Below are positions 2,501-57,200 of a stretch of DNA of 64,000 bases, piece by piece. The number at the start of each line of letters is the position of its first letter. The first letter of the stretch is position 1. The notes below the pieces were generated by a model that was not told where the DNA came from, searched no databases, and saw nothing but the letters and a program-made list of their open reading frames with translations. The DNA comes from Xiphias gladius (lineage: Eukaryota > Chordata > Actinopteri > Istiophoriformes > Xiphiidae). The stretch covers positions 22,469,045 through 22,533,044 of the forward strand of contig NC_053420.1 of NCBI RefSeq assembly GCF_016859285.1. The letters run 5' to 3'. Position numbers and translations under genes: made by a program.

Positions 2501-3000
2501 NNNNNNNNNNNNNNNNNNNNNNNNNNNNNNNNNNNNNNNNNNNNNNNNNNNNNNNNNNNNNNNNNNNNNNNNNNNNNNNNNNNNNNNNNNNNNNNNNNNN
2601 NNNNNNNNNNNNNNNNNNNNNNNNNNNNNNNNNNNNNNNNNNNNNNNNNNNNNNNNNNNNNNNNNNNNNNNNNNNNNNNNNNNNNNNNNNNNNNNNNNNN
2701 NNNNNNNNNNNNNNNNNNNNNNNNNNNNNNNNNNNNNNNNNNNNNNNNNNNNNNNNNNNNNNNNNNNNNNNNNNNNNNNNNNNNNNNNNNNNNNNNNNNN
2801 NNNNNNNNNNNNNNNNNNNNNNNNNNNNNNNNNNNNNNNNNNNNNNNNNNNNNNNNNNNNNNNNNNNNNNNNNNNNNNNNNNNNNNNNNNNNNNNNNNNN
2901 NNNNNNNNNNNNNNNNNNNNNNNNNNNNNNNNNNNNNNNNNNNNNNNNNNNNNNNNNNNNNNNNNNNNNNNNNNNNNNNNNNNNNNNNNNNNNNNNNNNN
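2501..3000. other. assembly gap (500 N)
   Basis: Exactly 500 N bases, which suggests a placeholder of unknown true size. The gap cuts the second coding exon of cit after the LGREEFL segment. Confidence 0.98.
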
Positions 3001-5735: not shown

Positions 5736-5741
5736 TTTATT
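5736..5741 (-). terminator. crybb3: crybb3 polyadenylation signal
   Basis: AATAAA on the minus strand, about 160 bases after the crybb3 stop codon. It is the first canonical hexamer in a sensible position for the 3' end. Confidence 0.6.
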
Positions 5742-5899
5742 TCCAACAAAGATAAATGTTTCATTATTGTCTGTTCCAGTTTTCCAAAACTGCATGGTCA
5801 GATAATCTAAACTAACACAGGGTATGTTGGAGAGACTGGGTCCTGGCTGGCTGCCTTCATCTTGCCCCAGTTGCTGTAGGAGGTGCTGGAGGTGTGGCG

Positions 5900-7177
5900 T
5901 TAAGATTGGGGTTGAGTTTGGGATTTGGGGTTGGGAGTAGGATTAGGATTAGGGTCAGGGGTAGGGTTGGGGTTGGGGATAGGATCGGGAGTAGGATCGG
6001 GAGTAGGACTGGGAGGTGTAGGGGCAGGGGCAGGGGCTATATAGCACCCTTTCTTGTGCCACTGCATGTCCCGCACACGTCGGACGGACTGGATCTGAGG
6101 TGCAGTGGCTCCCCAATCATTCCAGTGCTTGAAGTCTCCATGCTCAAACACATACTGGCTCCCTCTGTAGCCAGGATACATGTATCCCACCCACCTTAAG
6201 AGGGAGGAAAAAGATTAGTACATCACATTTCTGGGGCAGTGAACTGGGCAACAGAACAGAATTGTTATAAAAAATACAGGCCCATTAAATTCTCTTAAAA
6301 AACAAAACAGTTGGATCAAGGATAAATAATACATATCACTGGGAAGGTTACAGCTTACGTTCCACTGATAGCCTTTGCACTGGCCACGCGGTCCTGGAAA
6401 CCATGAGCCCACAGACTGGGGACATCATCATCAACAATCTCCATCTTTCTGCCTTCAAAGCCTGCATTCTCAAACAAGTGCAGCTTGTGATCTGCACTGT
6501 CCTGGAGAGGAAAACAACAGGTTTGAGCGTGCCTGGCAGGAGGTTACATCTGCTAATATTACAACCATAATACTGACCACTTTCAGAGGCCTGAATGAGC
6601 TCAGGCTGTAGGCACTCTGCCAGTTGGTCCAAGTGCTCCAGCGAGGATACTCTCCTTTCTCTAGCACAAACTGCTCTCCTGCAAAACCTGGACGCTCAAA
6701 ACCCACCCACCTGAGGAAAAGGAGAAAATGCATCACATATAAATGAACACGTTCATCCTAAGCAAGGGAAACAACTTGAAAACAGGTTGCAGGTTTAGTA
6801 GAAATTGATGAGAAATAATGAAGGGAAACTGAATCACTCACGGTCCCGACTCAACAATGACTGAGCCGACTCGCTGTGTCTTCTCCAGCACATCTTTACA
6901 TTCACCAGACAACTCCACTTTCTTTCCACGAAAGTTCTCAAACTCAAAAACCGCCAGCTGCAAGACAGGAACAGTCGATGGTGTGATCAGCAAAGTCCCA
7001 ATTCCATGGTGATTTGGATTTTTTTCCTTTCATTCCTTAAACGTTTTTCCTGTTTATATAATGTGTGAAGTCAACAGAAAAAGTCGCTTTTATCAAAGGT
7101 ACCTTATATGTGGCTCCGGCCCCTCCTTGGCCCTTCTCTGCAGGCAGCTGGTCTGGGGTTCCTTGCTGTTCCGTCAT
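5900..7177 (-). CDS. crybb3: beta-crystallin B3 with extended Pro-rich C-terminal tail
   Basis: Structural protein of the eye lens; beta-crystallins form oligomers that give the lens its refractive index. Five coding exons: 7177-7103, 6957-6842, 6710-6578, 6501-6359 and 6194-5900, all with GT/AG sites and correct phases, giving 253 residues. Exon 1 encodes the N-terminal arm ([10 protein letters not shown]...), which matches the CRYBB3 arm (MAEQHGAPEQ...) rather than B1 or B2. The other four exons each encode one Greek-key motif, the usual beta-crystallin plan. Key segments include [13 protein letters not shown] and [20 protein letters not shown]. The domain ends near residue 205. Mammalian CRYBB3 is 211 residues and ends a few residues later, whereas here 48 more follow (206-253), mostly Ala/Thr/Asp/Asn-Pro pairs. 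The neighbour KIAA1671 is also CRYBB3's neighbour in human, supporting the name. Confidence 0.92.
5905..6041 (-). repeat. crybb3: minisatellite coding the X-Pro tail of crybb3
   Basis: A degenerate array of 6-base units, CCNNAY-like on the coding strand. On the plus strand it appears as runs of GGGGTT, GGATTA and GGGTAGG. It encodes three Ala-Pro, then mixed Thr-Pro, Asp-Pro and Asn-Pro pairs up to the stop. The plus strand looks telomere-like but is not a regular TTAGGG array. Confidence 0.8.
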
Positions 7178-19891: not shown

Positions 19892-22800
19892 TGTTCTTAT
19901 ATCACAACTTAATCAGGCCGAAGCAAGTATGACAAGATATTTTTTTCTCTTGCTAAAAGAATGGCAATGTGTTGGTGCAGGTGAGGTGTGTGGCTGCCTG
20001 GCTGATATGATTCAGTGGTGAAAAAAACACGTTTACATGTACACTCCTGTCTCTGTTCTGTTATCCTCACCGTTTCTCATTAATCTGGCCTTTCAAAGGC
20101 TGGTGTTCACAAATCAGTCAAGTCGCATTCCAAGCGAATGGGACAGAATTTTGTATTTACCTCCATGAGCTGCTCCTCCTCTGGTCTTTCCTTGGCTGGT
20201 GTAGGCTCTGGTCTGTCTGGTTTTGCCACCTGCTCTGGTGCTTTGTTTTCCTGAGGGAATACATTCAGGGGCACCAGCAGCTCCACATCCTCTTTATCCA
20301 CAGAACTTGTAGCCCAGCTCTGGACAACTGGACTAGTTTCTGCTTTCTCCTGTGAGCCCCACCTCTTTGGTTTGACTGAAAAATCATCAAAATCAATCTC
20401 GATCAGAGGCTTTCTGACAGAGAAGTCATCATAAACAACTTCGATTGGAGTCTCTGTGGGCCCATGGATTTTTGCTAAGGGGGATTGCAGTGTTTCTGAC
20501 TTCTGAGGCTCATCGTCAGAGTCAAAGCTGATTAAATTTGACTCTGCCTCTGCCACTGCACTCTCTCCTTCCCTGTTGGTCAACCCAAGTTCGTCTTTTT
20601 CTCTTTCTTCATCCATCCTTAGCTTTTCTTCCAGTTCCTTTGCTTGCTTTCTTACCAATGCCTCTTGCATCTTTCTCTCAAGCCCCTCCACTCTTTCTTT
20701 CTCCATCTGTCTCTTCCTTTCCTCTTCCCTTTCCTCCTCCTCTCTCTGTTTTTCTATTTGCCTCATTCTCTCCATCTCTTCCTCTTTTTCTTGCTGCATT
20801 TTCCTCTCAAGCTCCCTTTTTGTTCTCTCCTCCTCCTCCTGTCTCTGTCTTTCCTTCATCCTCTCTTCCTCTTCCATCCTCCTTTGCCTCTCCCGCTCTC
20901 TTTCCTCAGCCTCCTCTCTTAATCTTTCTTTCTCCCTCTCTTCTTGTTTGAGTCTCTCCTCTTTCTGCCTCGCTCTCTCTCTGTCCTCCTCTTTCTTTCT
21001 CTGCCACATCAACTCCAGCTCCTTTTCTCTCTCCCTCTCTTCTTCTTGGCTAATCAAACTTTCTGTCTTTTTCACCCACTCTTTTTCCCACTCCTCCTCT
21101 CTATGTTTCTCTTTTTTCATTCCCTCGTCTCTCAGTTTCCCCTCCAATCTGTGTTCCTCGTGTTCATGAATCAATCTCTCCTCCTCTTCTCTCAGCCTCT
21201 TTCTTTCTTTTTCCTCCCTCAGTCTCTCCTCTTTCCTGTTCTCCTCATTCAGTCTGTCTTTTTCTCTTTCCTTCTGATCTTGCTTTAGTCTCTCTTCTTT
21301 CTGCTTCGCCCTCTCTCTTTCCTCCTCTCTCTGTCTTTGCCACATCACCTCCATCTGTCTTTCCCTTTCAATCTCTTCTTCTCTCAGCCTCTTTCTTTCT
21401 CTTTCCTCCCTCAGTGTCTCCTCTTTCATCTTCTCCTCATTCAGTCTGTCTTTTTCTTTCTCCTTCCGATCTTGCTTTAGTCTCTCTTCTTTCTGCTTCG
21501 CCCTCTCTCTTTCCTCCTCTCTCTGTCTTTGCCAGATCACCTCCATCTGTCTTTCCCTTTCAATCTCTTTTTCTCTAAGCCTCTTTCTTTCTTTTTCCTC
21601 CCTCAGTCTCTCCTCTTTCCTGTTCTCCTCATTCAGTCTTTCTTTTTCTCTCTCCTTCCGATCTTGCTTTAGTCTCTCTTCTTTCTGCTTCGCCCTCTCT
21701 CTTTCCTCCTCTCTCTGTCTTTGCCACATCACCTCCATCTGTCTTTCCCTTTCAATTTCTTCTTCTCTCAGCCTTTTCCTTTCCCTTTCGTCTTCTTTAA
21801 ACCTTTCTCTCTCCCATTCCTCTTTTTTGTTCCTCTCCATTTCCTCCTCCTTCAACCTCTCTCTTTCCCTTTCTTCCTCTCTCTGTTTCTCCTCTTCCCT
21901 AAGCCTAATCTCTTCCCTCTCCCTAAAATTTTCTTTCTCCCTTTCTTTCTCTTCTCCTTTACGCTCCTCTTCTAACTTATGTCCTGCCGGTTTGTTCTCC
22001 TCTGCTCTCCGTCTCTGTTCAAATTCCAGATGTGTTAGTTGTTTCTCTTCTTGCTTTTGGATCTCATCCTCCTTCTTCTGAAGAATTCCTACTCGTCTGT
22101 GGACAGACAAAGAAACAGGGGTATCCTCCAAAGCTTTATCCTCAGGAGCCTCTCCTTCTTCTTCTTCTTCTGAACTGGATTCAGAAGCTGAGCCCAGGAT
22201 CTCTGGAGGCCCACCATCATCCCTCTCCACGATACCAAAGCGCACAGAGCGACGTTTAAAACTGTCTCTCTTTGGAGCGCGCTGGGCACTTTCACTTGAA
22301 GCTGAGTCTCCCTCATCGTTGGCAGTTTGGGTTGTACATGGTCTGCGATTGCGTAGTCGAACCTCACCCTCTGTTGATTTGTTCGGCTCGTCCTCTACCG
22401 TTGTCTCTGTTGAGCTCTTCGAAGACTTCTTTTCTGTAGGAACGTCTTTGGATGGTTCCACTGGGGACTCCGAGGGGATTTCAGCTGCGGAGACCTTTGA
22501 ACGGGGATCCATAGCCTGTGTAGACGACTTTCCGGTTCCAGGTGGTTCAAAATGTGGTGTTTTTGGCATTTTTTCAGCTATTGGAGCAGTCGCAGGCTCA
22601 AAGCTGTAATAGATAACACAGTCAGCAGGCTGTTGAACTACTCCTTTAAAGGGTTGGTCTGCCCTCAACCAATCTAGAACAATCTAGATATATCTAGCCA
22701 TTCAGATTGTTTTAATTTTATTTGCCAGGTCTTGTGAAATTGTCTGAGTCTAACTCATCATCAGAGATGAATTTCTTTTGCGGTGCTCAGAGCATTAAAA

Positions 22801-54200: not shown

Positions 54201-57200
54201 ATTAGTGGCAAACGATGCCTTCTTCTTCTTCTCTGTTGCTAGCTGGTGACCAGGACAAAGAAGATCTTTGTCGGAGGGCTGTCAGTCAATACCACCATCG
54301 AAGATGTGAAGCAATACTTCGACCAATTTGGAAAGGTAAACTATACACAAATCTGGTCTCTATTTGTGGCCGTCACACTCTTTGACAAGCTCCTGTCTCT
54401 CAGAGTCTCTAATGCAGTGGTTCCCAACCTTTTTTTGAGTGAACCTGGTGTCCCCTTCAGAGACACCGCCTGTCGTGTTACAAATGTGGTCATTTGAATT
54501 GATTTTTAACCTGGATATTAAAAGTGGATAAAATAATTATTGAATTGTCAATCTTTGATCAGTTTGGTTTGATACTACTTCCACTTGGAGCGGCAGAAGC
54601 GGGATGTTTCAACCATTTATCCGTTACTTTTAGCTATTTCAGTCATTTATACGTTAGCTAACTGTTTGAACTGCTTATCCCTTAATTTTAAGTAACTATG
54701 TTAACTGCTAATCCATTAGCATTAATTATTTCAATCATTTATCCATTAGCTATTTTAACTGTGTTCCAATACTTTTAGCTTACTATTTCATATATTACTT
54801 TTAGAATAACTATTTCAACCATTCTCCTTTTTATTAAATTGAAATTTCTATTTTATCAGATAAGTTGTGTTACTCTACAATCTTTCCACATACCCACTGG
54901 CAAGTGCAGAGGCTACCACTGCAGAACAAGTAGCTCTGGTTGGGAATCACTTCTCTAATGCACCTTTGATGAATTATACTCATCTTTTGGCTGTATCTCT
55001 TTGACATATTTCAACTTTTCTCTGCACATTTACAAATTTACAGAGAAATTATTGTTTTACACCTGTTGTTTTCCTCATTTTTTCCCCTTTCATTTGAGTT
55101 GAGGCATGACAAAAAGTGCAAGATGGGCTTAATTTCAGAGAAAAGGTGGAGAGAAAAGGGCCAGACGAAAGTGAAAGACATGACTGAAAGAGAGAAAGAA
55201 CCAAAAGAAAACAAAGAAAGAAGCTGTGTGGTCACTGATGTCTGCTCTGCCAGCTAGAGCATCAGTTAGTTTGTTAGTTTATCTCTTTTGTGAGCTGTTT
55301 TGCTCTTTTCTGATCGCATCTTAGTGTTGTTAGCTTCCACATTTGTCGTGCTCAGCTCCTTTGAATGAAATTTGGTGAAAGGCAAACACATGCTGTGGAG
55401 ACAGATGAGTGGCCGGGGAGAGGGAGGAAGAGAAAAAGCAGGCAGAGGAGGGGAAGAGAAGAGGGAGATGGCGGGGGACTGAAAGGGAAGAAGCAACCCC
55501 CCATGGAGAGCGAGGGAGGAGAACTCTGAAAGGGTTGAAGGGCAGAGAAAAGAAGGAATGTTGAGATAGTGAGGAAGAAAAGTGGCTATGAAAGGCAAAA
55601 ACACCAATCTGATGGACCATAAATGTATGAAAGTGCCCATGAAATGTTGGGTTATTTTTTAGCTAACTACACGTATGGGGGTTGGGGGGTGCTTATGAGT
55701 GGAGTTCAGGCTCTTCAGTATTAACTAATCAAATGCAACAGCTGCTCCTGTAACACCCCCCCCACCTTGCCCAAAATCGGTACCTCAGACACCGACTCCC
55801 CTCCCGTCCCACACATACACACACCCTGCTCCAGTCCCTCTCAGCTTGTTGCCGTGGTGACCTGCTTTCGCCCATTGTCCTGCTGTAATCCAATGTTTTT
55901 TTGTTTCCCTTAAAAAAATGCGTGAGAAGTGTGTATTTGCATGAATGGAAAGAGGAGTGTGTGTGCACGCATGAGAGTGTGACAGTGGCATTGCTGAGGC
56001 TGCGAAGGGAGGCGAGCTTGCATACATTTGTCCAGATATAGACAGACAGCAAGACTCACAGCCAGTGATCCCACTTGTCACAAACATTAAGTGTGTGGTT
56101 CTGCTGCTGTTGGTGAGCAGGACTGTCTGAAAATGAGCATGGCTCCAGGATGTAGGCCTAATGGGTTGGAAGAAATTAACAGCACGGAGCTCCTTATTCC
56201 TCGTGTCTGGCTGTGTTTTTCTCTTAGTTGGCCTCTGACTCATGTTTGGGGTTATTACCATATTTCAGGTGCTAGCTCAAATTGAAATATTGTCTTCTAA
56301 TTCTGGGCCGTGGGCCCTGGTCGACCTGCATTTTGACTCATTGTAAGGTGGGTGCTGTGACATGTGTCATGTTTTCCTGAGTGCGTTTCGTTAAAATGGC
56401 TGCAGCTCTGTGCCGAATCAGTTCTCCCTGGTGATTACAGACACTCATATCTAAGACAACATTCCCTCCGCAGGATGAGGGGATATTTGGGCTGTTTGGA
56501 CACGTGAGACCAAAGCTGTATCATGGATAGCGCCAATCCCACAGTGCATTCCTGCTGAGCAGGAGGTATTTCTTGTTTATTATCTGAGCCTGGTTACAAG
56601 GTGCAGGTTAGGATGGAGTAGGACTCAGTGCCCTGTTTATTTTCATAGTGTGGCACCGCCTTGCAAAGGAAAACACAGAATGCACTATGCATTTTCTGCA
56701 CCTCTTTGATGCGTGCTGCAGTTTATTTTTTTGATGTATACTTCTGAAAGCGCACCTACACAAACTTCATTAGACCAGACAGAAATGGCGGCTCAGTTGA
56801 CACATCAGGTGTTTTGGACCAAACCAAGGAGTCAAAGGCGTGTGTTTATGTGTGGTTTCCCCAACTGAACAAATCTGAGCTCCTGTTGCTAAATGTCCTT
56901 GGGCCAATAAGACCACAGCAGCCATGTTTGTATGAGAAGGAAGTCTGAATACTGAGGTGAAGGACTTGTGATCCCCCTCAACCTGGTGGAGAGTTGAGAA
57001 CGCCTCCCTTCTTTCTGGCAACGCTGAATGTAGAGCCTGTGTGGATCTGAGAAATGTGTTTTAAACTGGAAATCAGGCATGCAGTTAGGTAATTTGATAA
57101 TTAGCATTTCAGGCATTTCGGTCACTCAGTCAGTGCGTTTAATCCAAAGGAAATTCCTGTTTTTGTGTCTTTTATCCTGCCTCTCTGTGCTGCATTCCTG

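Follow-up and report, generated by a model that had tools for sequence, protein, structure and literature searches.

The X-Pro tail of a crybb3 gene of Xiphias gladius is a known kind of fish βB3 extension, with an apparently frameshifted end

Introduction

The closest described system is the zebrafish βB3-crystallin, from a lens study that appeared in Molecular Vision in 2008, reportedly with Posner as first author. Zebrafish βB3 carries COOH-terminal PNPN and PAPA repeats, which make it the largest crystallin of the zebrafish lens, and these repeats were likened to the PAPA sequence of βB1 (PMC2358921). A later study also noted proline-rich extensions in fish βB3, but set them against βB2 of mammals and birds (PMC3580975, Molecular Vision 2013). 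The two papers thus disagree as to which mammalian subunit has a proline-rich extension: it is βB1 according to PMC2358921 and βB2 according to PMC3580975.

The level of zebrafish βB3 is reported to be low until 10 weeks and to rise afterwards (PMC3580975), and at six months it is the second most abundant protein of the lens (PMC2779061, Molecular Vision 2009). According to a 2025 review (PMC11979377), the developing zebrafish lens does not express crybb3, which fits late expression. Proteomics of the adult lens does find the protein.

Results

A crybb3 gene with five coding exons

By "the window" we mean the whole stretch of 64,000 nucleotides that we analyzed (C21:22469045-22533044 of a 690.8-Mb genome). 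It contains crybb3 on the minus strand, which the original prediction had left unstated, with five coding exons (Table 1). All four introns have GT-AG ends, and joining the exons gives a protein of 253 residues, with a computed mass of about 28.2 kDa in the assembled frame. Four of the exons carry one Greek key each, which is the β-type gene plan (PMC3554465). The protein matches the Crystall family of Pfam in two stretches (PF00030, E = 2.7e-53), as befits paired Greek keys, and its best match in PDB is human βB3 (3qk3, E = 7.2e-83). Of the βB subunits whose structures have been solved, βB3 is the closest, with 281 bits as compared to 266 bits for βB1 and 256 bits for βB2. These results bear out the gene's identity in the original prediction, which had also placed a poly(A) signal about 160 bases beyond the stop codon; we find AATAAA 159 bases past the stop.

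Table 1. Features of crybb3 in the window. Positions are those of the window.
Feature	Position	Strand	Basis or remark
First coding exon, N-terminal arm (25 residues)	7103..7177	minus	donor GT next
Exon, Greek key 1	6842..6957	minus	acceptor GCAG, donor GTGAGT, split codon at 3' end
Exon, Greek key 2	6578..6710	minus	GT-AG
Exon, Greek key 3	6359..6501	minus	GT-AG
Last coding exon, part with Greek key 4, ends in MQWHKKGCY	6041..6194	minus	Pfam Crystall on the joined protein
C-terminal tail, 46 residues, 20 Pro, mostly X-Pro pairs, then SQTQPQS	5903..6040	minus	translation
Array of 14 consecutive six-base units in one register (CCNNNN)	5924..6007	minus	CC invariant, 14/14
Apparent +1 frameshift zone, with runs CCCC and AAA	5920..5933	minus	register change (about 5943-5925) and C-terminal homology; narrower limits read from the letters
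Stop codon TAA of the assembled frame	5900..5902	minus	translation
Part of the 3' UTR with homology to the coding end and TGA of the C19 copy, +1 frame (TPPAPPTATGAR, then stop)	5857..5897	minus	33/41 bases identical
AATAAA poly(A) signal	5736..5741	minus	AATAAAAGTT aligned to it in the paralog

Greek key 1 is one residue shorter than in the second crybb3 copy on C19, which is described below (seen in a 12-residue stretch of the window copy, as compared to DVTEKGLEKVGSV on C19). We also searched a set of viral contigs (viral_contigs) for relatives of the last exon and confirmed none there, as expected of a fish gene.

The rest of the window has a few other features. A long open frame runs for 858 codons from stop to stop on the minus strand (20110-22683), and within it lies a 192-base tandem repeat with 3.1 copies (21181-21783). 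Positions 2501-3000 are exactly 500 N, which is a scaffold gap of round size.

A tail of X-Pro pairs and its degenerate repeat

The tail follows WHKKGCY directly and continues the reading frame of the fourth Greek key. It opens with APAPAP and has PNPNP further on, which are the Pro-Ala and Pro-Asn repeats that define the C-terminal extension of zebrafish βB3 (PMC2358921); the final residues, SQTQPQS, depart from the X-Pro pattern and come after the change of register at about 5943-5925 (see below). The original prediction was right that a tail of X-Pro pairs extends past Greek key 4, but it gave the length as 48 residues, and by residue count there are 46.

That a six-base repeat encodes the tail also held up, as we found a six-base register with 14 units. 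Columns 1 and 2 of the hexamer are CC in every unit, while columns 3 to 6 depart from their commonest base 6, 3, 5, and 7 times, respectively. The hexamer is degenerate, as Tandem Repeats Finder gives the array unit lengths of 42, 19, and 12 bases only. Because the units of an array are not independent, the invariance of CC is suggestive of selection rather than proof of it, and homogenisation of the repeat could account for it in part.

In a DNA search of the genome with the locus, the array alone had matches on C16, C482, C154, and C1. The two that we read, on C16 (L034, C16:24746377-24746578) and C482 (L035), are telomere-like arrays of CCCTAA/CCCAAC repeats. This is a resemblance between simple sequences and need not imply descent. 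In the frame CCT-AAC, telomere-like DNA reads Pro-Asn, which may explain the PNPN pairs of the tail. More generally, because DNA like that of the array is telomere-like elsewhere in the genome, much of the sequence of the array may be mutational instead of selected.

A second crybb3 copy also has a tail

To find relatives within the same genome, we used the body of the last exon (52 residues) as the query, which gave 31 matches. We read eight of these as loci; the other 23 were weaker. The best match after the window itself was C19:22989147-22989299 (L002), with 84% identity in the last exon. The C19 copy has the same exon plan, and an X-Pro tail begins straight after its WHKRGCF: the frame continues through TVPDPDPAPAPAPAPAPAPGPDPDPAPAPPAPPATAGAS to a stop, for a tail of 39 residues, 17 of them proline. 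The two tails differ in their X residues, which are rich in Thr, Asn, and Asp in the window (46 residues) and rich in Ala and Asp on C19 (39 residues). The C19 tail also ends differently, with APPAPPATAGAS before its stop, and a crybb2 gene lies near it. The proline fraction is nearly equal (20/46 in the window and 17/39 on C19).

The body of the C19 copy is also most similar to human βB3 in PDB (E = 3.7e-92), with 311 bits for βB3, 281 bits for βB2, and 264 bits for βB1. If the last exon of the C19 copy is searched alone, then βB2 and βB1 score above βB3, whose solved chain breaks off at RRIRD; with the complete body, the assignment is to βB3.

Tails are present in just two of the seven βB-type last exons that we read to the stop codon, and these two are the crybb3 copies. 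The other five (on C7, C15, C23, and C20, and crybb2 on C19) stop 4–7 residues after the same GC[FY]/GAF point, with EMTA, TLSSD, TMASK, TLTAASK, and HPVN as their endings. For crybb2 on C19, the PDB match to human βB2 extends through the final residue. We kept L008, which ends in SIRRIQH and a stop and has no tail, out of the count of seven, as it is an exon without a βB ending.

On C19, crybb3 and crybb2 point the same way, and the last exon of crybb3 is located 5.6 kb 5' of that of crybb2 (L002, L007, and L010; C19:22987923-22994900). The crybb3-crybb2 arrangement is reported for human and chicken, but not for zebrafish (PMC3554465); if different copies were lost following genome duplication, this could account for the zebrafish case.

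We also looked at candidate crybb1-like N-terminal arms, whose label is putative. The one on C20 (L015:3200-3500) has a short GAPAPAA stretch, and those on C15 (L011) and C23 (L012) have no proline. The long X-Pro arm of this fish is on βB3 and not on the candidate crybb1-like arms.

With the tail of the C19 copy in hand, we consider it scarcely credible that the array is untranslated, with the gene ending or splicing near 6041, and we reject this reading. Nothing in the DNA speaks for it: there is no stop codon before 5902, the C19 paralog is arranged alike, and the large size of zebrafish βB3 was ascribed to its repeats (PMC2358921).

The tail appears to predate an old duplication

The bodies of the two crybb3 copies have diverged at dN = 0.14 and dS = 1.10 (NG86 method, 208 codons, after removing one codon of the C19 copy). 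The window also contains an RRM exon (54255-54338, plus strand) whose best match in PDB is Musashi-1. It has matches on C19, C17, and C462, and the protein match on C19 is 100%. The musashi-type exon is 48 kb from crybb3 on C21 and 73 kb from crybb3 on C19, with the same outward orientation in both. This pairing fits the duplication of a block, which was probably, and most simply, part of the teleost genome duplication. Given that both copies are tailed and lie near a musashi-type gene in the same orientation, and that dS is about 1.1, the tail would predate an old duplication: it is most simply explained as older than the split of the two crybb3 copies.

Conversely, the degenerate hexamer array, and the similar telomere-like arrays elsewhere in the genome, might be taken to mean that the tail is a young expansion of a six-base minisatellite into crybb3 of this species only. 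We reject this as very improbable: the C19 paralog has its own X-Pro tail even though the bodies are at dS = 1.10, and zebrafish βB3 has PNPN/PAPA repeats (PMC2358921). A recent change in the length of the array within the species is possible.

We therefore consider it highly probable that the tail is old and is the known C-terminal X-Pro extension of fish βB3, in one of two crybb3 copies. Its age, and its retention in both copies, follow from the diverged second crybb3 on another chromosome having a tail too. As an extension of the PNPN/PAPA kind, it is already known from zebrafish, and the novelty that the original prediction implied is not supported: the tail was published for zebrafish (PMC2358921), and each of the two crybb3 copies here has one. 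The original prediction had named the same tail in all teleost crybb3 as a ground for refutation, and as far as zebrafish and these two copies go, this is what we see.

The stop codon of the window copy looks secondary

The reading frame was originally described as intact to a clean stop. This is true of the letters, but it is probably not true of the ancestral gene. In the +1 frame past the stop codon, the window encodes TPPAPPTATGAR and a stop, while the C19 paralog ends in APPAPPATAGAS and a stop. The alignment of this part of the 3' UTR to the coding end of the C19 copy scores 37. The maximum scores for shuffled sequences were 27 and 30 (1000 base shuffles and 1000 triplet shuffles, respectively), so none of either set reached the score of the real alignment. 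Over the 12 codons of this C-terminal stretch, the window and C19 have 9 differences, of which 4 are at codon position 1, 5 are at position 3, and none are at position 2; the corresponding dN of 0.24 and dS of 0.47 are only suggestive over so few codons. Also, the register of the hexamer changes between about 5943 and 5925.

The alignment of the UTR beyond the stop, in the +1 frame, with the coding end and stop of the paralog makes the "clean stop" look secondary. A one-base frameshift near 5920-5933, either in this copy or in its assembly, has apparently removed the old C-terminus, and the stretch past the stop probably ceased to be coding only recently in the C21 lineage. The frameshifted end of the C21 crybb3 thus looks like a new correction to the picture of a tail that ends at its natural stop.

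We give a little under even odds to an error in the assembly, that is, to the stop codon at 5900-5902 being due to an erroneous indel, with the real gene reading on in the +1 frame to the TGA at 5859-5857. Two things speak for such an error: the UTR matches the coding end of the paralog up to the same stop position, and the register changes among runs of four C and three A within a C-rich repeat. On the other hand, the same picture would arise from a polymorphism or from a real frameshift of recent date. Also, the genome has a single full-length match to the locus: when we sought a contig from a second haplotype by searching with the DNA of 5740-6193, we obtained 24 matches, and the sole full-length match was the window itself.

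Slightly less probable, in our view, is a natural loss, in which a one-base slip in the telomere-like hexamer array cost one of the two crybb3 copies its conserved C-terminal cap (TPPAPPTATGAR). If so, one copy of this fish would have a bare X-Pro arm that ends in SQTQPQS while its sister is intact, and this natural pair could be used to ask how the cap and the X-Pro register matter in a lens. The caveat about the frameshift matters to users of this gene model.

Discussion

What might the tail do?

The fish lens has a very high concentration of crystallins, and few parts of these proteins other than the terminal arms are free to change. The original prediction had suggested that the tail could alter oligomerisation or crowding in the lens. 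We lean slightly toward a role for the tail as a spacer. The arm would be flexible or disordered, polyproline-II-like, and weakly acidic, and it would lie outside of the Greek-key fold. There it could act as a steric and hydration spacer that limits close contacts between βB3 subunits and keeps their assemblies soluble in the very concentrated lens. At the DNA level, slippage of the hexamers would let the X residues and the length of the arm drift, with proline kept at most alternate positions.

The sole experimental hint that we saw of a role in solubility is from zebrafish, where spots of βB3 with lower mass are found preferentially in the insoluble fraction (PMC2358921). These spots are only putatively truncated: the authors allow for a different modification as the cause, and even for truncation as an adaptive response (PMC2358921).

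It is possible, although we are doubtful, that the tail is just a tolerated sequence that is driven by slippage and has no function in the lens. Its DNA is simple and telomere-like, and the tails of the two copies are markedly unlike in both length and X residues. Yet the proline fractions of the two tails are near-equal, CC is invariant across the units of the array while the other four columns vary, and the tail was retained in two old copies as well as in zebrafish. The absence of differences at codon position 2 in the C-terminal stretch, and its dN below dS, also argue against a lack of function, but weakly, as there are just 12 codons. The role of the tail should be testable, because one genome contains two old crybb3 copies that have different X residues and near-equal proline content.

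Comparison with known systems

The human CRYBB3 protein ends a few residues past RRIRD, and the PAPA sequence of CRYBB1 sits at the N-terminus. The Greek-key body of the window protein aligns with human CRYBB3 (PDB 3qk3) over residues 20-198, but this structure is uninformative about the tail, as the solved chain stops at RRIRD.

Like the window tail, the PAPA sequence of mammalian and chicken CRYBB1 (cited in PMC2358921) is a Pro/Ala-rich extension of a basic β-crystallin. However, it belongs to another subunit, and the window tail is C-terminal on βB3, so the window tail resembles the βB1 arm without being one. The original prediction had drawn an analogy with the Pro/Ala-rich arm of βB1, and PMC2358921 supports it by drawing the same one for zebrafish βB3. 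A proline-rich arm on fish βB3 and on βB1 of mammals and birds suggests that the same physical device is used on different subunits.

The closest counterpart is zebrafish βB3 itself (AAY18970, Table 1 of PMC2358921). The comparison is between its published description and the DNA of the window copy. The portion of PMC2358921 available to us mentions no frameshifted end for zebrafish βB3. What the two proteins share is the COOH-terminal PNPN and PAPA repeats, on a protein that in zebrafish was identified in the adult lens.
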